From positions 1-23,455 of IMG/VR virus record IMGVR_UViG_3300032893_000274: a stretch of 23,455 nt of DNA; one strand, given 5' to 3'. Below, in pieces: positions 1 through 17,394 of this stretch; position 1 is the stretch's first letter, and the number at the start of each line of letters is the position of its first letter. This stretch comes from a virus. The position numbers were made by a program, and so were the translations under genes. A model generated the notes under the pieces. It searched no databases, was not told the origin of the DNA, and saw only the letters and a program-made list of their open reading frames with translations.

Positions 1-79
1 CGAGGAGGTCAACAAGAACCTCCTACGCAACCATGCGAATGACGCCATGCGCCAGATCCTGAGCAGGGTCGAACGATGA
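1..79 (+). CDS. C-terminal end of upstream gene, probably terminase large subunit (partial)
   Basis: An open frame enters from the left edge and ends at TGA 77-79. About 25 charged residues are visible (ending Arg-Val-Glu-Arg), too few for a family match. The stop overlaps the portal start in an ATGA junction, so the two genes are translationally coupled. The terminase call rests only on position: the large terminase gene usually lies just before the portal in tailed phages. It could equally be a small gene between the two. Confidence 0.5.
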   Translation, partial: EEVNKNLLRNHANDAMRQILSRVER

Positions 80-3037: not shown

Positions 3038-3742
3038 ATGGGCATCACCGTCTTGTGCCCCACGCGCGGCAACCCGGCCGCGCTCAGAGAAGCGCACCAG
3101 TCGTTCGTCGACACGGCCACCCGGCGGGACTCCCGTTTCGTGGCCGTGGTCGACGGCGACGATCCGCTGCTTGAGCAGTACGTCTCGGAGGCCGAGGATG
3201 TTGTCGACCTCCGGCTCGACCTCGTCCCCAAGGGCGAGACCGGGACCATGAACAAGGCGCTCAACTGGGCGGCCGTCCGATGGGCAAAACGCGACAGCGT
3301 CGTCGGCTTCATCGGCGACGACCACCGCTTCCGGACCCGTGGCTGGGACGACACGATCGTCTCAGTCCTCGACCGTGAGGGCGGCGGCTTCGCCTACGGC
3401 AACGACCTGTTCCAAGGCGAGCGGCTCCCGACGCAGGTGTTCATCTCCAGCCAGATCGTGCTGGCGCTCGGGTGGTTCGCGCCGCCAGCCCAGTGGCATC
3501 TGTACCTCGACGACGCATGGAAGCTGCTCGGCGACACGGCCGACTGCCTGTACTACCTGCCGGACGTCGTGGTCGAGCACATGCACCCGGCGGCTGGCAA
3601 GGCGGAGTGGGACGAGAACCACCAGCGCGTCAACTCGTCGGCGTTCTACGACCACGACCGGGCGGAGTTCGAGAGGTGGCGCCAGACCCGGATGGCGGAG
3701 GACGTGAGGACTGTGAGGCGTGCCATCGGGAGGTCGGCGTGA
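3038..3742 (+). CDS. GT-A-fold glycosyltransferase-like protein 1
   Basis: 234 residues, with a strong ribosome site (GGAGGGATCC, 3025-3034) before ATG 3038. The N-terminus V-L-C-P-T-R-G-N (residues 5-12) is the first beta strand and nucleotide-binding loop of family-2-like transferases. V-V-D-G-D-D follows at 37-42, then K-G-E-T-G-T-M-N-K-A-L-N at 65-76, the usual region after the second strand. G-D-D-H at 93-96 stands where the metal/UDP-binding D-x-D lies. Later blocks (Y-L-D-D-A-W at 156-161 and V-E-H-M-H-P at 179-184) match the acceptor-side acidic and His segments of these enzymes. It is soluble, with no membrane helix, so it should act in the cytoplasm. Donor and acceptor are unknown. 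Its stop overlaps the next GTG (GTGA). Confidence 0.78.
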   Translation: MGITVLCPTRGNPAALREAHQSFVDTATRRDSRFVAVVDGDDPLLEQYVSEAEDVVDLRLDLVPKGETGTMNKALNWAAVRWAKRDSVVGFIGDDHRFRTRGWDDTIVSVLDREGGGFAYGNDLFQGERLPTQVFISSQIVLALGWFAPPAQWHLYLDDAWKLLGDTADCLYYLPDVVVEHMHPAAGKAEWDENHQRVNSSAFYDHDRAEFERWRQTRMAEDVRTVRRAIGRSA

Positions 3743-4383
3743 GCCTCGTCTCGGTCATCATCCCGACCTACAACCGGAACGACCTCCTGTTCGGCCGGTG
3801 CCTGCCATCCGTGCTCGCCCAGACGCATCGCGAGGTCGAGGTCCTCGTCGTCTCGGACGGCATGGAGGGCGAGCAGCTCGAAGATCTTGAGAGTAGGTAC
3901 AAAGCTCTCCAGTTCGAGACGGAGTTCCCGCTCCGGCTGTGGGTCGTCGACCGCCAGCCGTACCCCGACGACCAGCACCTCCGGTGGGGGCTGTCCGGGC
4001 TCGCGGCGCGCAACTTCGGCCTCGACCACGCCCGCGGCGAGTTCGTCGCCGCCCTCGACGACGACGACAGGATGCTGCCGGACGCGATCGAGCGGCTGGT
4101 CGGCGAGATGGACGACAGCGTCGACTTCGTCTACGGCATCAGCGAGACGTGGAAGGACGGCAGGACGACTGGGCAGCTGTATGGCCGGTATCCGCCGGGT
4201 GACGGGGCGCTCTGCAACGGGGCGTACGTCTACCGTACGTCGCTGCCGTACCGCTTCGACCTCGACTGCACGAGCCGAGGCAGGGCTGGCGACGCCGACA
4301 TGTGGCTCCGGATGCTGGACGGCGGCGTGCGGTTTCGGTTCCTCCCGAGGATCGTCCACCAGTACCACAGGAACTGGCCGTGA
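3739..4383 (+). CDS. Family-2 glycosyltransferase 2
   Basis: 214 residues from GTG 3739, overlapping the previous stop, with GGGAGG at 3728-3733. It is a clear GT2 protein: S-V-I-I-P-T-Y-N-R (residues 5-13), V-L-V-V-S-D-G (35-41), A-A-R-N-F-G-L-D-H-A-R-G (89-100), and the D-x-D region A-L-D-D-D-D (105-110). D-A-D-M-W (185-189) fits the catalytic-base segment, and H-Q-Y-H follows near the end. It is shorter than many GT2 enzymes and lacks membrane helices, so it is probably a cytoplasmic enzyme that adds sugar to protein or glycan. Long frames upstream in the same register are not coding; the GTGA junction and ribosome site fix the start. Confidence 0.88.
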   Translation: MSLVSVIIPTYNRNDLLFGRCLPSVLAQTHREVEVLVVSDGMEGEQLEDLESRYKALQFETEFPLRLWVVDRQPYPDDQHLRWGLSGLAARNFGLDHARGEFVAALDDDDRMLPDAIERLVGEMDDSVDFVYGISETWKDGRTTGQLYGRYPPGDGALCNGAYVYRTSLPYRFDLDCTSRGRAGDADMWLRMLDGGVRFRFLPRIVHQYHRNWP

Positions 4384-5069
4384 ACATCCCGGTCCTCGGC
4401 GTACCGTACGTCAGCCAGTCAGGGCTACTCCGCAAGCTGTTCGAGTCGATCGACTACCCGGTCGACAGGATCATCGTCGTCGACAACAGCGAGCGCGGCG
4501 AGGCGCACGTCCCCGAGGGGGCAGTCCACATCTCGGCCCGCCACAACCTCGGCGTGGCGGCCAGCTGGAACCTTGTCATCAAGGCAGCCCCGAGGGCGCC
4601 GTGGTGGCTCATCGTCAATGCCGACGTGGAGTTCGAGCGGGGTGACCTGTGCCGTTTGGCCGGGAGCATCCTCGGTGGTCCCGCCATCTACCAGATGGAC
4701 GGCTTCGCTGCCTTCGCCATCTCGGCCGAGGCAGTCCAGACGGTTGGCCTGTTCGACGAGAACTTCGTCCCCGCGTACTACGAGGACAACGACTACCACC
4801 GCCGGGCCGTCCTGCTGGGCGTCCCCGTCATTCAGGTCCCGTCACGGCTGCGACACGCCGGGTCGATGGTGATCCGGGGAAGCGACCACTTCCGCAGCGA
4901 GAACAACCGCACATTCCCCCTCAACGGGGACTACTATCGTCGCAAGTGGGGCGGCATGCCCGGATCGGAGAAGTTCGCCACGCCGTTCGACCGAGGCGGG
5001 AGCCCGGCGCAGTGGGAGTTCGACCAGAGACGGCTGGCCGAGCTGACTTGGAGCCCAGAAGGAGCCTAG
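4380..5069 (+). CDS. Family-2 glycosyltransferase 3
   Basis: 229 residues from GTG 4380, again in a GTGA overlap. It has the rhamnosyl/galactofuranosyl-transferase-like GT2 layout: I-P-V-L-G-V-P-Y at the start, I-I-V-V-D-N-S (31-37), N-L-G-V-A-A-S-W-N (56-64), N-A-D-V-E-F (80-85) as the D-x-D block, and Y-Y-E-D-N-D-Y-H-R-R (133-142) as the acceptor/base segment. There are no transmembrane helices. The sequence differs enough from its two upstream neighbours that it probably uses another donor or linkage, so the three genes may build a short oligosaccharide in steps. The stop TAG abuts the next ATG. Confidence 0.87.
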   Translation: MNIPVLGVPYVSQSGLLRKLFESIDYPVDRIIVVDNSERGEAHVPEGAVHISARHNLGVAASWNLVIKAAPRAPWWLIVNADVEFERGDLCRLAGSILGGPAIYQMDGFAAFAISAEAVQTVGLFDENFVPAYYEDNDYHRRAVLLGVPVIQVPSRLRHAGSMVIRGSDHFRSENNRTFPLNGDYYRRKWGGMPGSEKFATPFDRGGSPAQWEFDQRRLAELTWSPEGA

Positions 5070-5387
5070 ATGACCACCATCGCGATCACCCCGGCCGCGC
5101 CGATCGCGGTCACGTCAGCCTGTCGCGTGGACGTGACGGACGCCCCGGTGAACGACGCCACGGCGTACGACGCCTCGAAGTACCCGAGCGAGCCCGCCAT
5201 CCTGTACTACCTCTCGTTCGAGCGGACCGGCTCGGACACTGGCAAGTCGCAGGCGTTCCAGCCTGCCGCCGACGGGTCGTTCACCTTCAACAGCTACATC
5301 TTCCCCGACGCGGGAAGCTGGACGGTCCACCTCCGGAAGGTCTCGGACGACTCGTCCGTCGCCCAGACGTCGGTGACCGTCTCCTGA
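5070..5387 (+). CDS. Ig-like / beta-sandwich small protein
   Basis: 105 residues from ATG 5070, directly after the glycosyltransferase stop, with AAGGAG upstream. The sequence alternates hydrophobic and Thr/Ser/Asp residues and ends in a G-S-W-T-V-H-L-R strand and an S-V-T-V-S strand, typical of Ig-like or PKD-like domains that decorate phage virions. There are no catalytic motifs. A perfect hairpin follows the gene, so its transcript may end or be stabilised there. A place in the virion surface is inferred from fold type and company only. Confidence 0.62.
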   Translation: MTTIAITPAAPIAVTSACRVDVTDAPVNDATAYDASKYPSEPAILYYLSFERTGSDTGKSQAFQPAADGSFTFNSYIFPDAGSWTVHLRKVSDDSSVAQTSVTVS

Positions 5388-5392
5388 CTCCA

Positions 5393-5427
5393 GAGGGCCG
5401 CCGCGGCTCCCCGGCACGGCGGCCCTC
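5393..5427 (+). terminator. Perfect 11-bp stem-loop after the Ig-like gene
   Basis: Arms GAGGGCCGCCG (5393-5403) and CGGCGGCCCTC (5417-5427) are exact reverse complements around a 13-base loop. No T-run follows, so it is either an actinobacterial-type terminator without U-tract or an RNA-stabilising hairpin. It lies six bases after the stop codon and before the methyltransferase ribosome site. Confidence 0.6.
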
Positions 5428-5455
5428 GAACATCGCTCACCGGGTGGAGGGATCC

Positions 5456-6055
5456 ATGCGGCGCATCCACAAGGAGCTGGCGTCTGCTGACGACGCCGTC
5501 GTGTACAACCTGCGCGGTGACGGTCAGGAGTTCACGATCTTCGGGGTCGTCCAGTCCGACCGGGTTGGCAAGGCGCGCGAGATCATCGAGGCTGTCCGTC
5601 AGGACGACCCGTCCGCCCGGAAGATCATCGAACTGGGCTGCTCGACGGGCGACATCAGCGGCTACTTCGCCCAGACCTGCGACGTCATCGGCGTGGACGT
5701 GGTGCCGGGTGCGGTCGCCGAGGCCAAGCGCCGCTATCCGATGGGCCGCTGGCTTGAGGCGAGGGTCGAGAGCCTGACGCCCGAGCACTGCGACATCCTT
5801 GTCCTGTGTGAGTTCCTTGAGCACGTCGCGGACCCGATCCTGCTGGCCCGGGAGTGGATGCCGCTCGCCAAGCACGTTGTGATCGGCCACCCGGTCGTCG
5901 GGAGCGGTGACGACCCGGAGCCGGGCCACCTCTGGGCGTACGACGCCCGCGACTTCGACGACTGGTGGAGGATCGGCGGCCACGAGATGGTCCGCGCCTA
6001 TTCGTTCGCCATGGGCCCGTACCAGATGGTGATGGGCTGGGGGAACCGGGCATGA
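5456..6055 (+). CDS. Class I SAM-dependent methyltransferase
   Basis: 199 residues from ATG 5456, with GGAGGGATCC (5446-5455) directly before it. Motif I, I-I-E-L-G-C-S-T-G-D, is at residues 57-66, the acidic ribose-binding strand I-G-V-D-V is at 78-82, and the motif IV/post-I region C-D-I-L-V-L-C-E-F-L-E-H-V is at 112-124. This is the Methyltransf_11/23 type, common for small molecules and sugars. There is no DNA-methyltransferase N-P-P-Y or P-C motif, so DNA modification is unlikely. Among glycosyltransferases the natural inference is O-methylation of a sugar or capping of a glycan, but the substrate is not shown by sequence. Its TGA overlaps the next ATG. Confidence 0.85.
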   Translation: MRRIHKELASADDAVVYNLRGDGQEFTIFGVVQSDRVGKAREIIEAVRQDDPSARKIIELGCSTGDISGYFAQTCDVIGVDVVPGAVAEAKRRYPMGRWLEARVESLTPEHCDILVLCEFLEHVADPILLAREWMPLAKHVVIGHPVVGSGDDPEPGHLWAYDARDFDDWWRIGGHEMVRAYSFAMGPYQMVMGWGNRA

Positions 6056-6228
6056 GGCTGCGGCTGGAACGCGAGGCGTTCGACTACCAGACGCTCAGGG
6101 TGAACCTCGGCTGGCCGGAGCACTCCGTCAGGCTCCACGCCATGGCCGGAATCATCGCGTCGAGCGGTGCCACCTCCCTCTTGCGCTTCCCGACCATGTA
6201 CGACTTCCAGATCTGGGTGTGCTCGTGA
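6052..6228 (+). CDS. 58-residue protein of unknown function
   Basis: Short frame in an ATGA overlap with the methyltransferase; its own stop overlaps the GTG of the epimerase (GTGA). The product has an Arg-rich start, an aromatic middle and no recognisable motif. Continuity of the overlap pattern and the G-rich stretch at 6038-6045 upstream of its ATG support real translation. It might be an accessory subunit or simply a coupling peptide between two enzymes; I cannot decide. Confidence 0.5.
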   Translation: MRLRLEREAFDYQTLRVNLGWPEHSVRLHAMAGIIASSGATSLLRFPTMYDFQIWVCS

Positions 6229-7178
6229 CCACTGTGCTCGTCACCGGGGCGTCAGGCTTCCTCGGCTCCCACTTCCTAGACTGGCTGATCCGGAACAAGT
6301 CGGACGACCTCGACCTGTGGTGCGTCGACCTCAACCCACACCCGCTCGGCATCCCCTACGATCATCAGGACCTCGGCCTGTGGCTGGAGGACTTCGACGT
6401 CGACTGCGACCTCGTCTTCCACATGGCCGCCCCGGTCGGCGGCAGGGAGAAGATCGAGGGCGATCCGCTGTACAACGCGGACAGCCTGCGGCTCGACTCC
6501 GCGCTGTTCCGCTGGGCCGTGAAGCACGCGAAGACCGTCGTCTACCCGTCCTCGTCCGCCGTGTACGGGACGGTGCTCCAAGACGCCGACGGGCAGCCGA
6601 TGTTCGAGGGCCAGTTCGACCCGTCGGGCATGACGTGGCTGGCCCCTGACGAGATGTACGGGTTCACGAAGCTCGCTGGTGAGGTGCTGGCATGGAAGTC
6701 CGTCGCCTACGGGCTCAACGCGCTCTGCATCCGGCCCTTCTCGGGGTACGGCGAAGGCCAGAGCTTCGAGTACCCGGTGCCCTCCATCGCGCGCAGGGCG
6801 CTGCACCGGGAGAACCCGCTGACAGTCTGGGGACCGGGGACGCAGCGCCGGGACTTCATCCACGTGGACGATCTGGTGGCGGCGACGATGGCCCGGCTGG
6901 AGCGACCGGTGGAGGGCTATGAGGCCCTGAACCTCGGGAGCGGGAGGGGCACGGACTTCGACGAGGTCGCCCGGATCTGCGCCGAGGTCGTCGGGTACAG
7001 CCCGCACATCCTGCACCGGGTCGACAAGCCCGTCGGCGTCACCTCCCGGGTCGCCGACGTGACCCGGATGCGGCAGTTCTACGAACCGAAGGTCGGGCTT
7101 CGCGAGGGTCTGGAGCGTGTCGTCAACTTCATCCGCTCATTCGAGGAGGCGGCCGGTGCCCAAGACGATCAGGACTGA
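6225..7178 (+). CDS. NAD-dependent epimerase/dehydratase (extended SDR, nucleotide-sugar type)
   Basis: 317 residues from GTG 6225, chosen for its GTGA overlap; GTG 6219 is a close alternative. The Rossmann signature T-G-A-S-G-F-L-G-S is at residues 7-15 (G8, G11, G14). The catalytic Ser lies in P-S-S-S-A-V-Y-G (108-115), with Tyr145 and Lys149 in Y-G-F-T-K. R-D-F-I-H-V-D-D-L-V (209-218) is the substrate-binding block of UDP/GDP/dTDP-sugar epimerases, dehydratases and reductases. All catalytic residues are present, so it should be active. It would convert an activated sugar in the cytoplasm, giving the neighbouring glycosyltransferases a donor. The exact reaction (4-epimerase, 4,6-dehydratase or synthase/reductase) cannot be fixed from sequence. 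Confidence 0.9.
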   Translation: MTTVLVTGASGFLGSHFLDWLIRNKSDDLDLWCVDLNPHPLGIPYDHQDLGLWLEDFDVDCDLVFHMAAPVGGREKIEGDPLYNADSLRLDSALFRWAVKHAKTVVYPSSSAVYGTVLQDADGQPMFEGQFDPSGMTWLAPDEMYGFTKLAGEVLAWKSVAYGLNALCIRPFSGYGEGQSFEYPVPSIARRALHRENPLTVWGPGTQRRDFIHVDDLVAATMARLERPVEGYEALNLGSGRGTDFDEVARICAEVVGYSPHILHRVDKPVGVTSRVADVTRMRQFYEPKVGLREGLERVVNFIRSFEEAAGAQDDQD

Positions 7179-7995
7179 CCCGACAGCGCCGCAGATGATC
7201 GAGTACCGATCGGGCGAGACGCCCGGGACCATCGGCACGCTGGCCTTCTGCACTCGGGACCGGCTCAGCGCCGGTACGTTCATCAGCATGCTGATGGCGG
7301 ACCGGTCGAGCTTCTTGCGCCCGGGCGAGAACCTCGCCGTCCACATCGTGCAGGGCCACGTCCTGACGGCCCAGCGCAACGAGTGCGTCCAGAACATGCA
7401 GGGCGACTGGATCCTGTTCATCGACGACGACATGACGTTCCAGCCCGACGCCATCCGGCTCCTGATCGAGCGCCAGCGCGAGCACGACCTCGACATGGTC
7501 AGCGCGCTGTGCTTCCAGCGGATCTCGCCGCACCAGCCGACGCTGTACATGCGCGAGACCCCCAGCGCGGGCAACTACACCTTCCTTGAGGACTGGGAGC
7601 CGGGCGAGGTCATCGAGGTCGATGCCACGGGGCTCGCCTTCGTGCTCATCACCCGGCGCATCCTTGAGCGGATCGCGGGCGAGTTCCCGAGCTTCGAGGA
7701 GCGCCAGAGGTTCAACCGCGCCCCGTCGTACTTCCGGTGGGACGAGCGCGGTTATGGCGAGGACATGGCGTTCTGCCAAGATGTCAGGGCCGCTGGTGGC
7801 CGCATCTTCGTCGACACCGGGATCAAGACGGGCCACGTGAGCGAGATGATCGTCACCGAGGAGACGTTCCTCGACGTGCTCTCGCACCGGCCGGACGACC
7901 TGCGCGAGAAGGTCACCCAGATGAACGACCGGTTCGGCCTGCCGACGGTCACGCCGGAGCGGGCGCTGGAGCGGCTGGAGGCGCTCCGTGGTTGA
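7156..7995 (+). CDS. GT-A-fold glycosyltransferase 4
   Basis: 279 residues from GTG 7156, with an excellent GAGGAGG ribosome site at 7143-7149 inside the end of the epimerase gene (23-base overlap). The D-x-D block W-I-L-F-I-D-D-D-M is at 85-93, after a conserved L-T-A-Q-R-N region (70-75) typical of this phage glycosyltransferase group. Y-G-E-D-M-A-F-C (200-207) is the acidic acceptor segment, followed by G-G-R-I-F-V-D-T and a conserved H (227) in K-T-G-H-V. It is soluble. Proteins of this layout recur in actinophage and cyanophage genomes. The donor is unknown; the adjoining epimerase is a candidate source. Confidence 0.83.
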   Translation: MPKTIRTDPTAPQMIEYRSGETPGTIGTLAFCTRDRLSAGTFISMLMADRSSFLRPGENLAVHIVQGHVLTAQRNECVQNMQGDWILFIDDDMTFQPDAIRLLIERQREHDLDMVSALCFQRISPHQPTLYMRETPSAGNYTFLEDWEPGEVIEVDATGLAFVLITRRILERIAGEFPSFEERQRFNRAPSYFRWDERGYGEDMAFCQDVRAAGGRIFVDTGIKTGHVSEMIVTEETFLDVLSHRPDDLREKVTQMNDRFGLPTVTPERALERLEALRG

Positions 7996-8470
7996 CCACG
8001 ACCCGTGGGCGGGCGACACGCCGTACTTCCTGCTGATCTCGTCGCTGGAGCCCAACGAGGGCGGGGCGTACGGCTTCCTCGTGCTCGACGTGGACCGGCC
8101 CGGGTGGCAGACCGAGCACGAGGACTGGCTCCGCAGGTCCGCCGAGTGGCACCTGTGCGACAAGGAGACGGAGCGCGTCCTGCTGTCGCAGCTCGTGTAC
8201 CGCGGCGAGTACCCGTACTACGTCAAGCGCCACGTCGGCCAGATCAAGCTCAACGGGGAGCAGATGCGCGAGGTGTCCGTGTACGGGATCGGGAAGCGCG
8301 TCCCCGCCGCCCGAGAGGGCCGCAAGGTCGTCAGGCCGGAGCGGACCGACCGGCTGTGGATCCTTCCCGGCGGCGTCGTCTGCGGGGGGGATGACGTCGA
8401 GCCGCTCGCGATGCAGATCGTCCAGATGATGGACTGGGAAGCCCAGCATCGGGACGATGACGCGGTGTAG
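7988..8470 (+). CDS. 160-residue protein of unknown function
   Basis: Starts at GTG 7988, overlapping the glycosyltransferase stop by eight bases, and ends at TAG 8468-8470. No family is recognised. The protein is soluble and rich in charged and aromatic residues (W-H-L-C, Y-P-Y-Y), with an acidic end. A run of seven G (8384-8390) near the 3' end could be prone to slippage. As the last gene of the cargo operon it may help glycan synthesis or attachment, but only position says so. Confidence 0.6.
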   Translation: MVDHDPWAGDTPYFLLISSLEPNEGGAYGFLVLDVDRPGWQTEHEDWLRRSAEWHLCDKETERVLLSQLVYRGEYPYYVKRHVGQIKLNGEQMREVSVYGIGKRVPAAREGRKVVRPERTDRLWILPGGVVCGGDDVEPLAMQIVQMMDWEAQHRDDDAV

Positions 8471-8627
8471 CATGTAGGCAGGGCATCAGCCGCGAGGCGT
8501 GCCGGGCCCAATCCAATGGGCCCTCGTCCGAAGGCAATCCAATGCCGGTCGAGCGGGCGCAGATGAAGACGACACGGTGTAGCGGGTACCTCCGGGTGCC
8601 CGCTTTCTTCGTGTTCGGTGACCGCTG
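8471..8627 (+). ncRNA. Structured non-coding spacer with twin same-loop hairpins
   Basis: This 157-base gap holds several inverted repeats. Hairpin A: GGGCCCA (8504-8510) with TGGGCCC (8517-8523). Hairpin B: GGCA (8533-8536) with TGCC (8543-8546). Both enclose the identical six-base loop ATCCAA although their stems differ. Upstream, GCC-GCGA-GGC within GGCA...TGCC (about 8482-8502) can form a hairpin with a GNRA-type tetraloop. An intrinsic terminator ends the region. It could be the 3' UTR of the cargo operon, a small RNA or a protein-binding RNA site. A 27-codon frame (8499-8582) exists but looks incidental. Confidence 0.35.
8581..8616 (+). terminator. Intrinsic terminator at end of glycosylation operon
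   Basis: A ten-pair stem, AGCGGGTACC (8581-8590) with GGTGCCCGCT (8595-8604) and one G-U pair, around the tetraloop TCCG, followed by the T-rich run TTTCTTCGTGTT. This is the clearest rho-independent terminator in the window. It separates the cargo operon from the repeat-protein genes. Confidence 0.8.
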
Positions 8628-11372
8628 ATGGCCGTCGCGCTCGTCGGGACCATCGGGGTGGTCTCGGGCCCGACCCTCAACACCGCCCTCACCCCGGCGT
8701 GGGGCACGTCCGAGAACCGGACGGCGGGCAACCTGCTCGTCCTGTGGGTGGCGGTGGACGCCGTCGCCACGCTCCCGTCGCTCACGGCGAACGCCGCCGG
8801 ATGGTCCGTCTTCAAGCAGGTCGCGGGCACGTCGTGCTCGATGACCATCTACACCAAGCGAGCCAATGGCGGCGACGCAGCTCCGACAGTCGGCGCCATC
8901 TCGTCGGGCTATGTGTCGTGCCAGCTGGCCGAGTTCAGCGGCGTCGGATCGACGACGGCTTACTCGTCGTCGTCTGCGACCGGGACTACGACCAGCCCGA
9001 TCGTCGCCACCAACGGCGCCATCGACCCGGTCACGGGGATGCTGGTCCTCGTCGGGGCGGCGGACTTCTACTCGTCCGCCGCGACCAAGACCCTGACCCA
9101 CACCGTCACGGGCGGTGCGGCGACGATCACCGCGACGTCCAATGCGGGCACGTCCATCGCCCGTCACTACAGCTTCGGCTACGGCCCGACGACCACCAAC
9201 GCGAGCGCGACCAGCGACTCCTACGCCTTCACGACCACCAACGGCACGGGTCAGGCGCTGGTCATGGGCACGCTGCGCCCGGGCGGCATGCCCGGGTTCA
9301 CGTTCACCGCCGACGCCGTCATCAGGCGGACGCAGTCCGGGTCGGGCACCGCCGACGCCGTCATCAGGGTGCCACGATCCTCCTCTGTCACCGCCTACGC
9401 CGTCATCAAGCGGACGCCATCAGCCTCGTTCACGGCTGACGCCGTCATCAAGCGGTCCGGGCAGCTGGGATCTGCCACGGCGAACGCCGTCATCAAGCGC
9501 AGCGGTCAGCCGGGGTCAGCCACCGCGGACGCCGTCATCCGGGTATCGCGCTCTGGATCCGCTACGGCGGACGCCTACCTCAACCGGCGGGTCAGCGGCT
9601 CGGTGACGGCGGACGCGGTCAAGAAGCGGACGCTCGTGTACTCGGCCGGGTCCGGGTCGAGCGGGACGACTCGCCTCACCTATGCCGATGACGCGAGGAT
9701 CGGCGAGCTGACGCCGAACATTCCCGGCTCCACCGCTTATGCCGAGACGACCGACATCTTCGGTCAGGCCAACTACGCCGGGTGCCAGTCGATCATCCGG
9801 CTGTACGTCATGGGACCGTCAACCCTGACGGTCAAGTCGTACGGCGGTCAGGCCACCCTGCTCATCGACGGGGTGTCGGCGGGGACGCTCGACGGACTCG
9901 GGTCGACCGGCCAGCAGCAGTCGTTCTCCATTCCGACGACGGGCTGGTCGCTCGTCCAGATCCAGAACCCGACAGACAGTCCAACCTCGTACGCCTTCGC
10001 GTGGATGGATGCCGACCTCGGACCGGCCCCGTCTGCCACCTACCTGCGTGGCGACGCCGCCCTGAACGAGACGACGCCGGACATCTTGGACTACCTCGGT
10101 TACGCCGACCCGACCGATATCTGGGGTAGCGGCAAGACGAACGTCGTGACGCTGAACAGCGTCCCGCCCAACGCGCTCGTCATGTTCTACGGGTACGGCG
10201 GCGGGGCAGACCTGACCGTCGACGGTGTTGCCTCCTACGCGAAGGATGCCTTCGGGAACGGGTACAACTTCGGGTCTGCTGGCAGGCGCTGGTCCGTCAA
10301 GGCCGGGTCGTCGGGATCGACGGTCAGGGTCACGAACACCGAAGACAACACCGGTTCATACGCCCTTGCCAAGGTCGAGGTCTACCCGGCCTCGTACACG
10401 GTCTACGACGGGGCTGGACCGACGGCGGACGCCGTCATCCGGGTCCCGCGGTCGGGATCGGTCACGGCCGACGCCATCGTCAAGCGAACTCCAACCCCGA
10501 CGGCCACTGCCGATGCCGTCGTCAAGCGGAGCGGTCAGCCGGGGTCTGCGACCTCCGACGCGGTCATCAGGCGCAGTGGCCAGTCTGGCTCTGCCACCGC
10601 CAACGCGATGGTCCGTGTCCCGAGATCCGGGTCCGTCATCGCGGACGCCGTGGTCAAGCGGACCCAGACTCCGACGTCCACCGCCGACGCGGTCGTCAAG
10701 CGCTCCCAGTCCGGGTCCGTCACTGCGGACGCGGTCGTCAAGCGCTCCCAGTCCGGGTCAGCTTCAGCTGACGCGGTCACCCGGGTAGGCAGGTCCGGTT
10801 CGGCGACAGCGGACGCGATCCGGAGGACGTCGCGCTCGGGCTCGGCAACGGCCGACGCCGTCGTCAAGCGGACGCAGTCCGGGTCGGGCACCGCCGACGC
10901 CGTGGTCAAGCGCTCCGGCCAGTCAGGGTCGGGTACCGCGGACGCCGTCCTCAAGCGGTTGGGGACCGCGTCGTCCGCCACGGCTGACGCCGTCATCAGG
11001 ATCGGGCGCTCGGGGTCTTGGTTCGCCGACGCCATACTGCGCGTCGGACGATCCTCGTCCGGCACGTTCGATGCTGCCCTCAAGCGCACCCAGACGCCGA
11101 GTTCGTCTGCCGATGCGGTCCTCAAGCGGAGCGGTCAAACAGGGACGTGGACAGCGGACGCTGTTATCCGGATCGCGCGGTCCACCTCGGCCACCGCCGA
11201 CGCCGTGGTCCGGCGAGTAACGGCGTCGTCTGCCACGGCTGACGCCTACATCAGGAACGTACGGTCCGGGTCGGCTACCGCTGATGCCGTCGTCAAGCGG
11301 ACGCAGACTCCAGCGACGACAGAAGACGCGATCATCCTGCGCACGTTCAAGTTCGGAAAGGCGGGCCAGTGA
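8628..11372 (+). CDS. Large repeat protein 1 (probable tail-fibre/adhesin or decoration protein)
   Basis: 914 residues from ATG 8628. Layout: residues 1-225, a Gly/Ser/Thr-rich beta-sandwich domain (A-G-N-L-L-V-L-W-V near 32-40), a type common in phage structural proteins; 227-337, eight degenerate repeats of 14-15 residues with core T-A-D-A-V-I-[KR]-R and a S-G-S spacer; about 349-466 and 470-590, two related beta modules sharing T-P-x-I, T-D-I-[FW]-G and G-G-x-A-x-L-x-[IV]-D-G-V; 599-904, about 22 more repeats. There is no signal peptide, membrane helix or catalytic motif. The regular period, small residues and Ser/Thr content suggest a fibrous beta shaft with knob-like modules, on the tail or capsid surface. 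The many Ser/Thr could be targets for the neighbouring glycosyltransferases (inference). The stop overlaps the next ATG. Confidence 0.72.
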   Translation: MAVALVGTIGVVSGPTLNTALTPAWGTSENRTAGNLLVLWVAVDAVATLPSLTANAAGWSVFKQVAGTSCSMTIYTKRANGGDAAPTVGAISSGYVSCQLAEFSGVGSTTAYSSSSATGTTTSPIVATNGAIDPVTGMLVLVGAADFYSSAATKTLTHTVTGGAATITATSNAGTSIARHYSFGYGPTTTNASATSDSYAFTTTNGTGQALVMGTLRPGGMPGFTFTADAVIRRTQSGSGTADAVIRVPRSSSVTAYAVIKRTPSASFTADAVIKRSGQLGSATANAVIKRSGQPGSATADAVIRVSRSGSATADAYLNRRVSGSVTADAVKKRTLVYSAGSGSSGTTRLTYADDARIGELTPNIPGSTAYAETTDIFGQANYAGCQSIIRLYVMGPSTLTVKSYGGQATLLIDGVSAGTLDGLGSTGQQQSFSIPTTGWSLVQIQNPTDSPTSYAFAWMDADLGPAPSATYLRGDAALNETTPDILDYLGYADPTDIWGSGKTNVVTLNSVPPNALVMFYGYGGGADLTVDGVASYAKDAFGNGYNFGSAGRRWSVKAGSSGSTVRVTNTEDNTGSYALAKVEVYPASYTVYDGAGPTADAVIRVPRSGSVTADAIVKRTPTPTATADAVVKRSGQPGSATSDAVIRRSGQSGSATANAMVRVPRSGSVIADAVVKRTQTPTSTADAVVKRSQSGSVTADAVVKRSQSGSASADAVTRVGRSGSATADAIRRTSRSGSATADAVVKRTQSGSGTADAVVKRSGQSGSGTADAVLKRLGTASSATADAVIRIGRSGSWFADAILRVGRSSSGTFDAALKRTQTPSSSADAVLKRSGQTGTWTADAVIRIARSTSATADAVVRRVTASSATADAYIRNVRSGSATADAVVKRTQTPATTEDAIILRTFKFGKAGQ
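9306..9638 (+). repeat. First T-A-D-A-V repeat block (8 units)
   Basis: Eight tandem units of about 42-45 bases, coding T-A-D-A-V-I-[KR]-R plus a six- to seven-residue Ser/Gly/Thr spacer. A 36-base stretch (9326-9361) is identical to 10868-10903 in the second block, so copies have been exchanged or duplicated recently. Confidence 0.85.
10422..11342 (+). repeat. Second T-A-D-A-V repeat block (about 22 units)
   Basis: About 22 tandem units of 42-45 bases coding the same motif. Two adjacent units share an exact 32-base stretch (10686-10717 and 10728-10759) exactly 42 bases apart, which points to recent tandem duplication. Spacers vary between T-Q-S-G-S, S-G-Q-x-G-S and T-x-T-P types. Confidence 0.85.
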
Positions 11373-11794
11373 TGGCCACCCCCATCTCCGACGCCATCGC
11401 CTCCCTCCCGACCACGGCGGAGAAGTCGGCCTACAAGGCATCTGCCTACGCCGGGCTGCCCAACGCCGTGTGGTCGGCCACGGTCGGGACGTCGCCCGTC
11501 TACACCGTTCGTTTCTCGGTGGTCCCGGTCGCCAACGCGGCCCTGCTCCAGTTCAGCATCAAGGTCACGAAGCCGTCCGGGAACATCAACCCGCCTATCA
11601 ACGTGACGCCAGCTGGGATCAACCCGGTCAGCGTCTACAACCCGCCGATCCTCGTGCCGGACCCGGCGGGTGACGTGGTGAGGACGTGGACGAACCCGGA
11701 CGGGACGACCGGGTCCGCCACGTTCCGCGAGGACCTCCCGGCCGCCCTCACCCGGATGATCCTCGACCTGCTCGCCCAGCGGGGCATCCCGTGA
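11372..11794 (+). CDS. 140-residue probable virion accessory protein
   Basis: ATG 11372 overlaps the stop of repeat protein 1, with GGAAAGG upstream. No family is recognised. It has an alpha-helical N-terminus (A-E-K-S-A-Y-K-A), a beta-rich Pro/Asn/Val middle with N-P-P-I repeated twice, and a short helical end. It sits between the two repeat proteins and is translationally coupled to both (the GTGA overlap follows), so it may help assemble or attach them, as fibre chaperones and small connectors do. That role is inference from position. Confidence 0.6.
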   Translation: MATPISDAIASLPTTAEKSAYKASAYAGLPNAVWSATVGTSPVYTVRFSVVPVANAALLQFSIKVTKPSGNINPPINVTPAGINPVSVYNPPILVPDPAGDVVRTWTNPDGTTGSATFREDLPAALTRMILDLLAQRGIP

Positions 11795-13794
11795 GCACGC
11801 TCGTCGTCTATGGTGACCTCGGGAACGGGTTCATCGAGTCCGACTCCTATGTGTCGTACTCGGCAGCGAGGTCCGGCGACCAGCTGACCGAGCAGGGTAT
11901 CGGCGTCCTGTATGTCGGCCAGCAGTACAACGACTCCGGTGACCCGGACTATGCGCCAGTCTGGTCCGCCTTCGAGACTGGCCTGTCGTTCGACACATCG
12001 TCGCTCGGGTCAGGGGCCACGGTCTCGGCTGCCACACTCAGTCTCGTCTCCAGTAGCGACCTCTCCGACACCGACTTCACTATCGAGGCTCGGCTCGACG
12101 ATTGGGGAGCCTCGTACACGACGGCGGACTGGATCGCCGGGGCCAGCCTGTCCGGCAAGACACTGGTCGCCCACTACGCCACGTCGGGCGGGTTCACGCC
12201 AGAGACACGTTACGACTTCGCGGACGACGCGATGGCCACGAACGTCAACAAGACGGGCGAGACGAGGCTGCTCCTCGCGTCTGACCGCCAGCGAACCGGT
12301 GTCATCGGGCCGCAGTATGTAGATGAAATCGTCATCGCCTACTCAGGCGATCAGGCCGGGACGACGAAGGACCCGAGGATCATCGTCACCTACACGGTGG
12401 GCGGTGAGGTCTATGACGGGCCCGGGCCGACGCTCGACGCGGTCATCCGCCGGACTTCAAGCGCGAGCCTCAGCGCCGACGCCGTCGTCAAACGGAACCA
12501 GACCGGAACGCGGACGGCTGACGCGGTCGTCAGACGTTCGACGTCACTGTCGGCCACGGTGGACGCTGTCCTGCGATCGGCCCGCGCATCCAGCGTCTCA
12601 GTCGACGCGGTCGTCCGCCGGATGGCCTCTGCGTCGACCACGGCTGACGCCATCCTGCGTTCGACGAGGTCCGGGTCGCTCTCGGTCGATGCCGTCGTCC
12701 GGTCTTCCCGATCGTCCTCTGCGACGGCAGACGCGGTGGTGCGAACGTCGCCGACCGCGTCGTTCTCGGCGGACGCGTACATCAGGACGCCGGTCGGGAC
12801 CTCGTTCACCGCCGACGCCGTGGTCAGGGCCGGTCGGTCCTCGTCCCTGTCGGCGTCGGCATGGGTGTCCGGTTCCGGGCACGCCGCACTGTCGGCCGAT
12901 GCGGTCATCCTCAGCACGAAGACGGCCTCGTACAGCACAGATGCCGTGCTGCGTGCTCTCCGGTCTGCTACATTCACGGCGAGCGCGGTCACGCGCGCAA
13001 TCGCCGTCGGCTCCGCTGGCGCCGCGGCGGTCATCGCCAAGACGGCTACGGCCTCGCACGCAGCAGACGCGGTCGTGCAGGCGCCTCGAACGGTCGGGGT
13101 CACCGCCAGCGCGGTGATCCTGTCCCCGAGGACCGGATCAGCCACCGCCAGCGCCTTCATCACAGCGTCCCGCACGCGCTCCGCCTCGGTCGACGCCGTC
13201 ATCCGTGCCAGCCACGGGTCGTCGGCCAGCGTCGACGCCATCGCCAGAGTCGCCCGGTCGGGGTCCCTGTCGGCGAGCGCGTTCATCAGGTCGAGCGTTG
13301 CGAGCGGGTTCGGGGCGGACGCGGTCATCGCGGGGTCCCGTCAGGGCCTGCTCGCCGTCGGGGCCGTCGTCCGGCGCGAGAGCGTCAACGTCTTCACAGC
13401 AGCTGCCCTCCTTCGCCGGTCGCGCAGCATCGCATTCACAGTCGACGCGAACGTCCTGAGGACGGCCCCGGCCTCGTTCACCGCAGACGCCGTCATCAGG
13501 GCGAACGTCTACTCGGCGACGGCGGACGCGGTCATCGCGACCGCGACCCAGTTCGGGGCCACAGCCGACGCGGTCATCACCGTCAGCCGGGCGGAGCGGG
13601 TCGCCTCGGCCATCACGTCGCACGGGTCGGCAGCCAGAGTCACGACACCCGCCTCCACGTCGGCCGTCACGTCGCACGGAGCGGCAGCGGAGGTGTCCTC
13701 GCGGTACATCAGCGCGTCGGTCCTCGCGGACGGCTCGCGTGCAGCGCTTGACATCGCGTACCCGAGGTTCTCGGCCGACGCCGTCATCGCGTAG
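11791..13794 (+). CDS. Large repeat protein 2 (probable tail-fibre/adhesin or decoration protein)
   Basis: 667 residues from GTG 11791 (GTGA overlap). Residues 1-212 resemble a DNRLRE/CBM96-type jelly-roll: G-L-S-F-D-T-S-S-L followed by G-A-T-V-S-A-A-T-L-S-L matches the hallmark strand pair of that carbohydrate-binding family. Residues 214-598 hold about 28 degenerate 14-residue repeats of the [TS]-x-D-A-V-[IV]-R type, more diverged than in repeat protein 1; the motif appears once more at the extreme C-terminus (S-A-D-A-V-I-A). Before that lies a short double S-H-G-[SA]-A-A segment (near 610-635). There is no signal peptide, transmembrane helix or enzyme motif. The shared repeat type implies that both large proteins form similar fibres or interact. 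Cell-surface sugar or glycan binding is a reasonable guess from the N-terminal domain. Confidence 0.7.
   Translation: MSTLVVYGDLGNGFIESDSYVSYSAARSGDQLTEQGIGVLYVGQQYNDSGDPDYAPVWSAFETGLSFDTSSLGSGATVSAATLSLVSSSDLSDTDFTIEARLDDWGASYTTADWIAGASLSGKTLVAHYATSGGFTPETRYDFADDAMATNVNKTGETRLLLASDRQRTGVIGPQYVDEIVIAYSGDQAGTTKDPRIIVTYTVGGEVYDGPGPTLDAVIRRTSSASLSADAVVKRNQTGTRTADAVVRRSTSLSATVDAVLRSARASSVSVDAVVRRMASASTTADAILRSTRSGSLSVDAVVRSSRSSSATADAVVRTSPTASFSADAYIRTPVGTSFTADAVVRAGRSSSLSASAWVSGSGHAALSADAVILSTKTASYSTDAVLRALRSATFTASAVTRAIAVGSAGAAAVIAKTATASHAADAVVQAPRTVGVTASAVILSPRTGSATASAFITASRTRSASVDAVIRASHGSSASVDAIARVARSGSLSASAFIRSSVASGFGADAVIAGSRQGLLAVGAVVRRESVNVFTAAALLRRSRSIAFTVDANVLRTAPASFTADAVIRANVYSATADAVIATATQFGATADAVITVSRAERVASAITSHGSAARVTTPASTSAVTSHGAAAEVSSRYISASVLADGSRAALDIAYPRFSADAVIA
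12430..13584 (+). repeat. T-x-D-A-V repeat block of repeat protein 2 (about 28 units)
   Basis: About 28 consecutive 42-base units in frame, with core D-A-V-[IV]-[RK]. Drift is greater than in the first repeat protein: some units read S-A-S-A-W, G-A-A-A-V or T-A-A-A-L. The period stays at 14 codons almost throughout, so length is conserved while sequence drifts. Confidence 0.82.
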
Positions 13795-13802
13795 GAGAGG
13801 GC

Positions 13803-14132
13803 ATGGCGACGATCGAGGCCACCTTCGTTCAGGGCGACACCAAGCCCGACATCACCGCCACCCTGTACGAGGAAGAGGACCGGGAGAACGTCCTCGACCT
13901 CACGACAGCCGACAGCGTCAGGTTCCAGATGCGCAAGCCTGACGACGAGGTGTTCACGGTCGACGACTCGGCCGACGTGGTGGTGGCGGATCAGGGCGCC
14001 GTGTCGTACAGCTGGAAGGAGAACGACCTGTCGGTCCCCGGACTGTACGACGCCCAGTGGGAGATCCACTGGAACGACGGGAAGGTCCAGACCACGGTCT
14101 ACCCCAACCGCATCTTGGTCCGCCGCAAGTAG
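13803..14132 (+). CDS. BppU N-terminal-like (baseplate/fibre attachment) domain protein
   Basis: 109 residues from ATG 13803, with GGAGAGGG upstream. The pattern matches the N-terminal domain of lactococcal phage baseplate protein BppU and relatives (DUF2479 type): Q-G-D-T-x-P at 10-15, V-L-D-L-T-T-A near 30-36, V-R-F-Q-M-R at 39-44, G-A-V-S-Y-S-W near 64-70, P-G-L-Y-D-A-Q-W near 78-85, and a final P-N-R-I strand. In BppU this domain anchors fibres to the tail baseplate. Here the domain stands alone just after the repeat proteins, so it may be their adaptor to the virion. The match is by pattern, not by search. Confidence 0.7.
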   Translation: MATIEATFVQGDTKPDITATLYEEEDRENVLDLTTADSVRFQMRKPDDEVFTVDDSADVVVADQGAVSYSWKENDLSVPGLYDAQWEIHWNDGKVQTTVYPNRILVRRK

Positions 14133-14145
14133 GGGCTGATCCCCC

Positions 14146-14169
14146 GACGGTGCTGTGGACTGCATCGTC
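14146..14169 (+). terminator. Weak stem-loop between BppU-like gene and GT4 gene
   Basis: GACGGTGC (14146-14153) pairs with GCATCGTC (14162-14169), including one G-U, around an eight-base loop. No T-run follows, so it is at best a weak terminator or a processing/stability hairpin. Confidence 0.35.
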
Positions 14170-14183
14170 AGTGAGGGATCACG

Positions 14184-15455
14184 TTGGCCCGCATCCTCTG
14201 GATCAGTGACGCCGGAAGCTACTCCGGGTTCGCCCACGTCACCCACCACATCGGCGAGCGACTTGTCCGCGACTACGGACACGAGATCCACGTCCTCGCC
14301 ACGAACTTTCGCGGGGACCCGTTCCCGTCGATCCTTGAGCCCAACCGCCAGACGTTCCTGAAGCTGTACCTGCCAACCCAGCTCTCGCCGACCGACATGT
14401 ACGGCGCGAGCCGTGTGCAGGAAATGCTCGGGATGCTGATCGAGGGGCGCGGACCGGACCTCGACGCCGTCGTCATGCTCAACGACCCGGACCTGATCCT
14501 CCAGCTCCTGTTCGAGAACCCGTACGACAAGGAGCGGATCCTCCTACAGGCCCGGCCGATCCTGAGCTATGTGCCCGTCGACGGGACGGACCTGCCCCAG
14601 ATGTGGACCGACGTGGTGCCGAAGGTGACCAACGTCGTGGCCATGTCGAAGTGGGGCCAGCAGTTCTTCGAGCCCAGCAAGCTGACGTTCCACGGCGTCG
14701 ACCCCGACCACTACTGGCCAGTGCGCGAGAAGCCGATCAGGCTCTCCAACGGGACGGTCTGCCGGACGAAGAAGGACTGCAAGAAGGCGTTCGGAATGAA
14801 CCCGGACAGCTTCGTGATCGGGCGCATCGACAGCAACAGCGGGCGCAAGGACTGGCCCGCCTTCATCAAGGCGGTCCTGCCGCTCATGGCGAGGCACAAG
14901 GACATCGAGGTCTTCGCCCACACCCAGACCGTCCAGAAGCAGCACGGCGTCGACATCCCGTCGATGCTCATGCGCTGGCCGGAGGTCGACTCGCGCCAGC
15001 GGTTCCACACGCCCGGCAACTACACCCGGTACGCGGGCTGGCCGGTCGAGGACATGAACGGCCTCATCAACGCCTTCGACGTCACCGTGACCACCTCCCG
15101 CGGCGAGGGCGCGGGGCTCTCGAACCTCCAGTCGATCGCCTGCTCTGTGCCGGTGGTCGCCCAGAACGTCAGCGCGATCCCCGAGTACGTGGGGCCGGGC
15201 GGCGTCCTCATCGAGCCGCTTGAGCGGCGCATCACCGTACCGGCAGGTCAGGACATGTGGCTCGCCGACATCGACGCCTTCAGCCGTGAGGTCGAGCACC
15301 TCTACGAGGCTCGCGGAGTGGTCCGCAAGCTGGGCGAGGCAGGCAGGGAGCACGCGCGCGGGTTCAGCTGGGACGTCGCCGCTGCGGAGTTCGACACCTA
15401 CATCACTGGACTGAGCCGGAGTGCAAGTCCAGTTCAGGAGGTAGCAGCTCAATGA
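14184..15455 (+). CDS. GT-B glycosyltransferase (GT4-like)
   Basis: 423 residues from TTG 14184, with GAGGG at 14173-14177. The two-Rossmann GT-B layout is visible: R-I-L-W-I-S-D-A-G-S-Y-S-G at 3-15 with the Gly-rich N-terminal loop, F-H-G-V-D (169-173) at the domain linker as in GT4 enzymes, I-G-R-I-D-S-N-S-G-R-K-D-W (212-224) as the start of the donor-binding domain (usual G-R-L-x-x-x-K-G), and T-T-S-R-G-E-G-A-G-L-S-N-L (303-315) with the Glu of the E-x7-E donor motif. It is cytoplasmic with no membrane segment. It sits at the end of the cargo region and is coupled (ATGA) to the prohead protease gene, placing a sugar transferase inside the head operon. Donor and acceptor are unknown. Confidence 0.87.
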   Translation: MARILWISDAGSYSGFAHVTHHIGERLVRDYGHEIHVLATNFRGDPFPSILEPNRQTFLKLYLPTQLSPTDMYGASRVQEMLGMLIEGRGPDLDAVVMLNDPDLILQLLFENPYDKERILLQARPILSYVPVDGTDLPQMWTDVVPKVTNVVAMSKWGQQFFEPSKLTFHGVDPDHYWPVREKPIRLSNGTVCRTKKDCKKAFGMNPDSFVIGRIDSNSGRKDWPAFIKAVLPLMARHKDIEVFAHTQTVQKQHGVDIPSMLMRWPEVDSRQRFHTPGNYTRYAGWPVEDMNGLINAFDVTVTTSRGEGAGLSNLQSIACSVPVVAQNVSAIPEYVGPGGVLIEPLERRITVPAGQDMWLADIDAFSREVEHLYEARGVVRKLGEAGREHARGFSWDVAAAEFDTYITGLSRSASPVQEVAAQ

Positions 15456-17392
15456 AGGACTTCGGTGAGGACGTCCTGACGACGGCCATCCGCTTCGAGA
15501 TGTTCACCCGGACGTGGAACGAGCAGACCCGGTCATGGGAAGGCTCGATGCTCAAGGCATTCGAGGCCGACAACCCGGACGGCACCAAGCGGATGATGCT
15601 GCACGGGGTCGCCAGCTCGACGATCAAGGACCTCCACGGCGACACCATGCTGGAGTCCGCGCTCGACGACATGGAGCGGGCGGCCAACTCCGGGCTGACG
15701 ATCTTCGGCAACCACAGCTACGTCGTGCCCGAGGACGACTACGGCCACGTCGAGAGCGCCCAGATCCGCAACTCCGGCAAGATCGACGAGGCCGGAGACC
15801 CGATCTACGACCTGATGTTCGACATCGAGGTCAACGACGAGAACGACCGGGCCATCAAGACGTGGCGGTCGATCCGCAAGAAGAGCAAGCTGGGCCTCTC
15901 GATCGGGGCCATGATCCCGCCGGGCGGGGCGGTCCGCGACAAGAAGTCCGGTGCATTGACGATCTCCCACGTGGAGCTGCTGGAGACCAGCATCGTCGGC
16001 ATCCCGGCGAACCCGCGCAGTTGGATCGAGAACGCGGTCCGCGCCTCGCTCGCCGTCCCGGTCTCCAAGTCATCCACGTCCGCCAGCCTTGGGACGCCCC
16101 AGCTCACGCTGGACACCGAGACCGGGCACTACGTCATCGAGGGGAGCATCGCCGACATCGCCGCTGGCGATGCTGTCTCGTTCGGCTTCGGCAAGACCGT
16201 CGCGCCCGACGTGACCGAGAGCCACAACGAGTTGCCCGACTCCGCGTTCGCCTGCATCAGCCCCGGCGGCCACAAGGACGCCGACGGCAAGACAACCCCC
16301 AGAAGCCTGCGGCACTACCCGCACCACACCTCTGGCGGAGCCGTGGACAAGAACCTCCTGCGCAACGCGCTGGCGAGGTACGAGGACCCCAAGTCACCCA
16401 AGTGCGGCAAGGCCCACCTCGACGCCCACGCCAAGGCGGAGGGGATCGGGGACGACAACAGCTCGGACAAGTCGGTGGACGACTTGGTTCTCGAAGCCGT
16501 CACCACCGACTTCGACGTCGACCACTTCGTGGCCTTGGCTGGCGGCGAGTTCAGCCACGACCACGACCACGCCCACACGCACGACCACGAGCACAGCCAC
16601 GACGACGGCGAGATGCGGCACTCCCACGAGCACAGCCACATCCATGCTCACGGTCACGATCACGGTGGGACGGACGACCACGACCACGACGAGGAGATGA
16701 ACCACCCCGACCACGACCACGACCACGAGGGGTCGGAGGGTGACCATCCCCACGACAACGACAACGACAACGACAACGACAGCGGCAACGAGCCCGACGG
16801 CGACGAGGACGACAAGTCCCAGCGTGGCCAGAAGGCGGCCGTGTGCCCCGACTGCGGGCACGGGAAGGGCGGCGGCGGCGGCTGCCAGAACCCCTTCCAC
16901 TCGAAGGATGCGGACCCGGACGTCACTGACGCCAAGGTCCGGATCATCGAGATCGACACCGGGGACGACTCCGGTGCCTCATCGCAGGGAGCTTCAGGGA
17001 GCGAGCCTGCGGACGAGGATGGGGACGTGATCGACGCCGCTGCGGCGGACCAGATCATCACCTCGTCCCGGGACATGGCGGCCACGCTGGATCCGGAGGT
17101 CACAAGCCAGTTCCAGCTCCTCATCGACCTCGCGAACGGCCTGAACCGCGAACTGGCCGCCTCGATCGAGCGCGAGAGGACCGCCTCTGCCGTGGCTGAG
17201 CAGGCCGAGCGGCAGCGTGACGAGATCGCCGTCCTGTGCGGGAAGCTCATGTCCAGCACGAACGAGATCCTCAACAAGCTCGCCGACCAACCGGTCGGCC
17301 GTCGCGCGGTGTTCCGGGAGGCGCAGGAGGAGTTCTCCGGCCTCGAAGGGATCTACTCGCGCGACTTCCTGACGATGCTTAGGAGCAAGTGA
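15452..17392 (+). CDS. Prohead protease with His-rich insert and scaffold-like C-terminus
   Basis: 646 residues, about three times a typical prohead protease. ATG 15452 has AGGAGG upstream. Residues 40-190 are an HK97/U35-type protease: L-H-G-V-A-S-S-T-I-K-D-x-H-G-D (50-64), likely catalytic His88 in F-G-N-H-S, likely Ser150 in L-G-L-S-I-G-A, and the closing strand H-V-E-L-L-E-T-S-I-V-G-I-P-A-N-P (173-188). Residues 260-335 (P-D-S-A-F-A... P-R-S-L-R-H-Y-P) are an accessory domain I associate with actinophage maturation proteases. Residues 369-434 are extremely His/Asp-rich, then a D-N repeat, then a Cys/His cluster (C465, C468, H470, C478, H483) that may bind zinc. Residues 540-646 are helical and scaffold-like. 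No separate scaffold gene exists, so protease and scaffold appear fused. Confidence 0.85.
   Translation: MKDFGEDVLTTAIRFEMFTRTWNEQTRSWEGSMLKAFEADNPDGTKRMMLHGVASSTIKDLHGDTMLESALDDMERAANSGLTIFGNHSYVVPEDDYGHVESAQIRNSGKIDEAGDPIYDLMFDIEVNDENDRAIKTWRSIRKKSKLGLSIGAMIPPGGAVRDKKSGALTISHVELLETSIVGIPANPRSWIENAVRASLAVPVSKSSTSASLGTPQLTLDTETGHYVIEGSIADIAAGDAVSFGFGKTVAPDVTESHNELPDSAFACISPGGHKDADGKTTPRSLRHYPHHTSGGAVDKNLLRNALARYEDPKSPKCGKAHLDAHAKAEGIGDDNSSDKSVDDLVLEAVTTDFDVDHFVALAGGEFSHDHDHAHTHDHEHSHDDGEMRHSHEHSHIHAHGHDHGGTDDHDHDEEMNHPDHDHDHEGSEGDHPHDNDNDNDNDSGNEPDGDEDDKSQRGQKAAVCPDCGHGKGGGGGCQNPFHSKDADPDVTDAKVRIIEIDTGDDSGASSQGASGSEPADEDGDVIDAAAADQIITSSRDMAATLDPEVTSQFQLLIDLANGLNRELAASIERERTASAVAEQAERQRDEIAVLCGKLMSSTNEILNKLADQPVGRRAVFREAQEEFSGLEGIYSRDFLTMLRSK
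16754..16780 (+). repeat. GACAAC hexanucleotide microsatellite
   Basis: Four and a half perfect copies of GACAAC encode an Asp-Asn run just after the His-rich segment of the prohead protease. Perfect short tandem copies in a coding region may change length by slippage in steps of two codons without breaking the frame. Confidence 0.8.
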
Positions 17393-17394
17393 CC

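Follow-up and report, generated by a model that had tools for sequence, protein, structure and literature searches.

The window analysed here, a 23,455-base IMG/VR fragment (IMGVR_UViG_3300032893_000274) with 67 % G+C and every clear gene on the + strand, carries an island of glycosyltransferase (GT), sugar-enzyme and repeat-protein genes between the genes encoding a phage portal and a prohead protease. This island is probably a late-expressed locus for virion glycosylation whose sugar cassettes are exchangeable. It is not unique to this fragment, as it recurs in near-fixed gene order in a widespread clade of uncultivated phages, and within that order one slot holds either of two mutually exclusive GT sets, GTb-GTc or x4, with repeated switching between them; this slot and its switching are new here. 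Cytoplasmic glycosylation of virion proteins late in infection is suggested by the position of the island, by the 4-base overlap between the GT4 and protease genes, by precedents in other phages and by the lack of membrane segments in the GTs, none of which was found to contain one by hydropathy (no 19-residue mean >1.6).

The genes were called with a codon model built in this analysis and checked by profile searches. The borders, the enzymes and the conserved small genes between them are as follows (aa, amino acids).

76..1515 (+) portal, left border (PF04860, E 3.7e-33; phrog_12)
1515..2000 (+) g2, 161 aa, Ser/Thr-rich, candidate virion protein and candidate acceptor (conservation, composition)
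3038..3742 (+) GTa, glycosyltransferase (phrog_14945, E 1.2e-42)
3739..4383 (+) GTb, GT2, first gene of the exchangeable cassette (PF00535, E 2.7e-21)
4380..5069 (+) GTc, GT2-like, second cassette gene (phrog_29879, E 6e-40; PF00535 barely below cut-off)
5070..5387 (+) g9, 105 aa, small and Ser/Thr-rich, candidate acceptor
5456..6055 (+) S-adenosylmethionine (SAM) methyltransferase (PF08241, E 1.4e-9)
6225..7178 (+) NAD-dependent nucleotide-sugar epimerase/dehydratase (PF01370, E 1.2e-34; phrog_540)
7156..7995 (+) GTd, GT2-like (PF00535, E 2.4e-9)
7988..8470 (+) g14, 160 aa, conserved
14184..15455 (+) GT4, GT-B class glycosyltransferase, constant member beside the protease gene (PF13692, E 1.9e-10)
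15452..17392 (+) prohead protease, right border (PF04586, above cut-off)
17389..18753 (+) major capsid protein (phrog_752, E 5e-8; relatives at 79–80 %)

An earlier note on this DNA had placed the portal end at 1515 and the protease start at 15452 with the capsid gene behind it, and had counted five glycosyltransferases of at least two folds in the gap; the profile matches agree with both, GTa to GTd being GT2-like (GT-A) and GT4 of the GT-B class. The sugar epimerase, the SAM methyltransferase and the two long repeat proteins that it had described were likewise recovered by Pfam and repeat analysis. The small genes g2, g9, g11, g14 and g16 and the BppU_N gene had been omitted; three of them (g2, g9 and g14) rank with the most conserved genes. 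GTa has no match in Pfam, and its tblastn search gives matches in 71 phages. The closest solved chain to the epimerase is MoeE5 (E 6e-25), and the substrate of the methyltransferase is probably a sugar.

Conservation and layout of the island

The clade was assembled by IMG/VR searches with the capsid, GT4, GTc, epimerase and g2, and its gene skeleton was derived from gene calling and clustering together with six-frame profile searches. Nearly all relatives are fragments; after deduplication by contig name and near-identity, a spanning set of 31 non-redundant contigs covering g2 to g14 or GT4 was obtained, in which gene content, order and conservation were observed directly. The shared order is terminase, portal, g2, GTa, cassette, g9, methyltransferase(s), epimerase, GTd and g14, followed by repeat protein, BppU, GT4, protease and capsid, with local reordering in some contigs (for example, the epimerase gene precedes GTa in L013 and L021). 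Both g9 and g14 are present in 30 of the 31 spanning contigs, and GTa and GTd in 28 each; 26 carry the epimerase, and 20 carry a methyltransferase of this family. A fixed place inside the head operon, which supports the virion-glycosylation reading, was found in 28/31, and GT4 lies directly upstream of the protease and capsid genes in every contig that includes that side. In the nine records searched, matches to PF00535 and PF01370 fall within or adjoining the island, and L213 has none. The island cannot be ascribed to chance, because its proteins recur at ~40–80 % identity in dozens of contigs.

Neighbouring genes were described in the earlier note as coupled by overlapping stops and starts. 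This holds for most neighbours, which overlap by 4 to 23 bases (GTa/GTb, GTb/GTc, methyltransferase/g11, g11/epimerase, epimerase/GTd, GTd/g14, RepA/g16, g16/RepB, GT4/protease and protease/capsid), but the chain is not continuous, being interrupted by gaps at 5388-5455 and 8471-8627. Two further features belong to this layout.

6052..6228 (+) g11, 58 aa, overlapping both neighbours (codon score; match in L041)
8581..8604 (+) predicted terminator-like hairpin between the enzyme block and the repeat/head block (10-bp stem, T-rich tail)

Since the hairpin lies in the second gap, the island may be split into two transcriptional blocks; comparable hairpins follow g14 in 10 of the 34 relatives scanned. 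The search for a sigma-70-type promoter found none, and the Rfam scan gave zero matches.

Exchangeable cassettes

The slot between GTa and g9 is occupied by GTb-GTc or by x4, another GT2-like enzyme (PF00535 match in L017 and a weak one in L041), and never by both. Among the spanning contigs, 12 carry x4 only, 11 carry GTb only and none carries both (Fisher p 0.0014, with contigs treated as independent), and GTb and x4 occur together in no contig whatever of the collected clade. GTb is always accompanied by GTc. Switching is visible even among the nearest relatives of the window, as GTb-GTc occupies the slot in the window, L042 and L140, and x4 occupies it in L041. A tree built from the portals of 41 contigs, which is a partial remedy only for kinship in the exclusivity test, requires at least seven changes between the two states, and the sister pairs L161/L183 and L012/L145 differ. 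The rank correlation of gene distances with portal distance is low (0.08–0.14) for GTa, GTb, GTc, the epimerase and the methyltransferase and higher for GTd (0.48) and x4 (0.56); as the portal distances span a narrow range, these values carry little weight.

The alternative cassettes seen also include a third GT type in the slot of L013 and L208, as well as an aminotransferase set in L022, which comprises a DegT aminotransferase, a weak hexapeptide-transferase match and an extra GT2. The donor-sugar enzymes differ as well, the phage of L013 having two epimerase genes and a rhamnosyl-O-methyltransferase-type enzyme. A comparison of gene order in related phages had been proposed in the earlier note to see if the island travels as one block; the comparison shows instead that the chassis is fixed and that the sugar cassettes are exchanged inside it.

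Bacteria vary their capsule or O-antigen. By analogy, the island could be a phage-borne serotype locus, in which a constant chassis (g2, GTa, g9, GTd, g14 and GT4) in the head operon holds repeatedly swapped glycan cassettes, so that close relatives would carry different sugar coats; this is a serious possibility, held a little short of probable. Virion glycosylation is documented for a few mycobacteriophages, and its natural role is open to testing in this clade, where a near-universal trait, one fixed place and repeated cassette replacement make both the coated protein and the selection of the coat testable.

Repeat proteins and candidate acceptors

The repeat genes and their neighbours occupy the region between the enzyme block and GT4.

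8628..11372 (+) RepA, 914-aa repeat protein, probable fibre or adhesin (14-residue repeats, Ser+Thr 25 %)
11372..11794 (+) g16, 140 aa, between the repeat genes (homologue in L042)
11791..13794 (+) RepB, 667-aa repeat protein, probable fibre (14-residue repeats)
13803..14132 (+) BppU_N-type protein, 109 aa, probable repeat-fibre attachment module (PF10651, 25.8 bits against a cut-off of 23.1)

RepA and RepB consist largely of 14-residue units (the dominant spacing) and contain 25 % Ser+Thr, most units holding two to three Ser/Thr; in their relatives Ser+Thr remains high, at 17–28 %. The structure model of RepB has a mean pLDDT of 53, with the repeats as beta strands at a pLDDT of ~70–80 at best and an unusable N-terminal domain, and a tblastn search of phage genomes with RepA returned no match. 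BppU_N is fused to the repeat-protein C-terminus in L014, L015 and L051 (the fused copies of L015 and L051 score slightly below the PF10651 cut-off), and same-slot proteins of relatives contain Laminin_G_3 in L022 and CBM_4_9 in L041. The TADAV-type motif of RepA and RepB is also found in proteins encoded 3′ of the tape measure gene in the L016 genome (L127:3563-7831, L127:10524-10883). These fusions, the two domains and the motif past the tape measure gene indicate that the repeat proteins are probably carbohydrate-binding virion appendages.

In bacterial serine-rich-repeat (SRRP) loci, a repeat adhesin gene stands beside GT4 and GT2-type enzymes. The island is similar in having GT4 and GT2-type enzymes beside a Ser/Thr-rich repeat adhesin gene, and its repeat genes are located between the GT2 block and GT4. 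The repeat proteins might be regarded as dedicated acceptors in a phage counterpart of such loci, with GT4 initiating O-glycosylation, the GT2s extending the chain and a glycosylated fibre as the product. The abundance of Ser/Thr in most repeat units and its retention in relatives favour this explanation, which is nevertheless unlikely. High Ser/Thr is common anyway in beta-rich fibres, the repeat sequence differs from that of SRRP loci, and GT4-GTc-methyltransferase sets occur without repeat homologues in two other phages, phiPsal1 and S-CBS4. No accessory Sec genes are present among the annotated island genes, although no search aimed at them was made.

The separability of enzymes and repeat proteins was observed directly in two natural variants. 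L017 retains GTa, x4, the methyltransferase, the epimerase, GTd, g14 and GT4. Its g14 and GT4 are separated by only ~240 bp, and this slot contains neither a repeat gene nor BppU; the contig stops shortly past GT4, which leaves room for a repeat gene relocated elsewhere. Conversely, L213 (59.9 kb) keeps the terminase, portal, g2, g9, g14, a 1333-aa repeat-slot protein, BppU, GT4, protease and capsid, and the searches of this record with PF00535 and PF01370 detected neither a GT2 nor an epimerase. As the portal of L215 is identical to that of L213, the two were counted as one lineage, which provides a natural case of loss in which to study how most of the system is dispensed with. Taken together, L017 and L213 indicate that the enzymes and the repeat proteins can be inherited separately, with GT4 kept in both. 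The repeat proteins are therefore not an obligate acceptor, and they stand as candidates by their Ser/Thr composition.

Composition makes g2, the repeat proteins and g9 candidate acceptors. The most conserved non-enzyme is g2, with 36–80 % identity among 14 members, a clade-wide Ser+Thr mean of 25 % and a profile that pulls in 248 viral contigs. Its structure model is beta-rich (pLDDT 87) and gives middling matches to pilin-type beta sandwiches, with no match at E <0.001 in PDB and BFVD; a family assignment was dropped, since the best VIA-align Z of 6.8 lies in the range where common beta sandwiches also score. The Ser+Thr content of g9 is 25 % in the window and 19 % on average in the clade, and its sequence pattern, the sole basis for this reading, suggests an Ig-like protein. 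No family was matched in the searches with g14.

Probable virion glycosylation, its precedents and alternatives

The proposal of a dedicated virion-decoration system in the earlier note stands in so far as the locus lies in the morphogenesis region, is kept in a large clade, has GT4 overlapping the protease gene and has precedents that occupy this slot or an adjacent one; the idea that the repeat proteins are its necessary acceptor is weakened. In the proposed mechanism, the epimerase and the methyltransferase would make or finish an unusual sugar, which soluble cytoplasmic GTs (GTa, the GTb-GTc cassette, GTd and GT4) would build up on Ser/Thr-rich proteins of the virion, either before its assembly or while this proceeds. 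GT4 may start or anchor the glycan, its constancy being the sole basis for assigning it this role, and the exchangeable GT2, epimerase and methyltransferase genes would determine the glycan type. RepA and RepB with BppU_N would form a fibre whose genes share this region; it is possibly glycosylated and is not required for enzyme retention. That the target is a protein is inferred, as are the sequence in which the enzymes act, the identity of the sugar and the carrier, which may be g2, g9, the capsid, the tail tube or the repeat fibre.

The closest precedent in layout is found in cluster O mycobacteriophages (Firecracker and Corndog), in which a methyltransferase and several GTs with overlapping ends are likewise encoded between the portal and protease genes (Firecracker genome; PMC4351075). 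The cluster O gap differs in having no epimerase, repeat proteins, BppU_N gene or GT4 of this kind. Corndog gp38 corresponds to Firecracker gp36, and Che8 gp108-110 form a comparable set. The window enzymes have no blastp match to Firecracker gp36 or Che8 gp110 at E 0.05, which is compatible with remote homology, and only short marginal matches to gp35, Che8 gp109 and gp33. For Corndog, these enzymes were detected in infected cells and were absent from virions, and fewer capsid peptides than expected were seen (PMC4351075). Freeman 2023, cited in PMC12363180, is reported to have found that the capsid is glycosylated by Corndog gp38 and Che8 gp110. The island thus most likely works like the cluster O system, by analogy of layout, and need not share its lineage; by sequence, its enzymes are not close to the Corndog-type and Che8 ones.

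Cluster J mycobacteriophages (Dove and Omega) possess a comparable block in the head region with GTs, a methyltransferase and a sugar-related gene (PMC3706429), and Dove gp12, encoded by the gene following the capsid gene, is homologous to GTd (E 2e-12). However, that block is located between the capsid and head-tail connector genes, includes a kinase and a peptidase, and has no repeat fibre. In Pontimonas phage phiPsal1 and Synechococcus phage S-CBS4, a GT4, a GTc homologue (39 % and 30 %, respectively) and a methyltransferase are encoded near the capsid genes, although these sets comprise three genes only, show no repeat-protein match and belong to a different phage group.

Several observations weigh against virion glycosylation. 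The clade is known from genes alone, with no virion or glycan observed, and the absence of GT2s and epimerase from L213 indicates that at least one lineage can do without the complete glycan. Moreover, the GTa homologues of Streptomyces and Arthrobacter phages sit among DNA-metabolism genes and not structural ones, and the lack of a significant match to Corndog-type gp36 and Che8 gp110 also counts here.

Phage GT2s are frequently host-glycan-modifying, and GtrB-like PHROGs are matched by GTb, though weakly and over part of the length (E about 1e-3). Nevertheless, it is very improbable that the island enzymes alter host-surface glycans during infection, as in superinfection exclusion or serotype conversion. 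The GTs lack the membrane segments, and the island any visible flippase-like gene, of a Gtr cassette; the genes are placed with late head genes, and three contigs of 68–74 kb contain no tyrosine integrase, so that a role in lysogenic conversion is not indicated.

Glycosylation of phage DNA as protection against restriction is still harder to credit. GTd matches a hydroxymethylcytosine (HMC)-glucosyltransferase PHROG over ~46 residues (E 0.004), and GTa matches phrog_2675, which is labelled DNA methyltransferase. However, the phrog_2675-type protein of Actinoplanes phage phiAsp2 combines a GTa-type domain with Methyltransf_24 and is a putative O-methyltransferase encoded after the tail genes. 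No PF00303 (thymidylate-synthase/hydroxymethylase) match was found in eight clade records, which are possibly incomplete, a search for Tet/JBP run without a positive control gave no match, and the island is located with head genes. Virion glycosylation remains the preferred reading, and the case cautions against interpreting phage glycosyltransferases by default as host- or DNA-modifying.

The phiAsp2 protein, pas34 (L220:7992-9782), is itself labelled a DNA methyltransferase and is flanked by two glycosyltransferase genes; putative O-methyltransferase is the depositors' description. The label common to pas34 and phrog_2675 looks misleading.

The actinobacteriophage frame adopted in the earlier note was not established. 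The capsid protein has no tblastn match in 50,697 phage genomes, and a search of GTDB genomes gave one distant cellular relative, 40 % identical, on a contig of an Anaerolinea metagenome-assembled genome (MAG; Chloroflexota). There, the protease-capsid pair (L138:8760-11230) has portal and terminase genes upstream and no GT4 beside the protease gene, which is a weak hint of both the host and an island-free state.

Two further observations concern single genes of the window. Between g2 and GTa, a homing-endonuclease-like gene (2006-2491; phrog_5046, with LAGLIDADG_1 slightly below cut-off) is present, and a related gene occupies the same position in L042. The window protease (646 aa) carries a His/Asp-rich insert of ~180 residues (16289-16834), possibly metal-binding or scaffold-like, which is missing from the relatives L007-L009, whose matches end at residue 279 and restart at 462.

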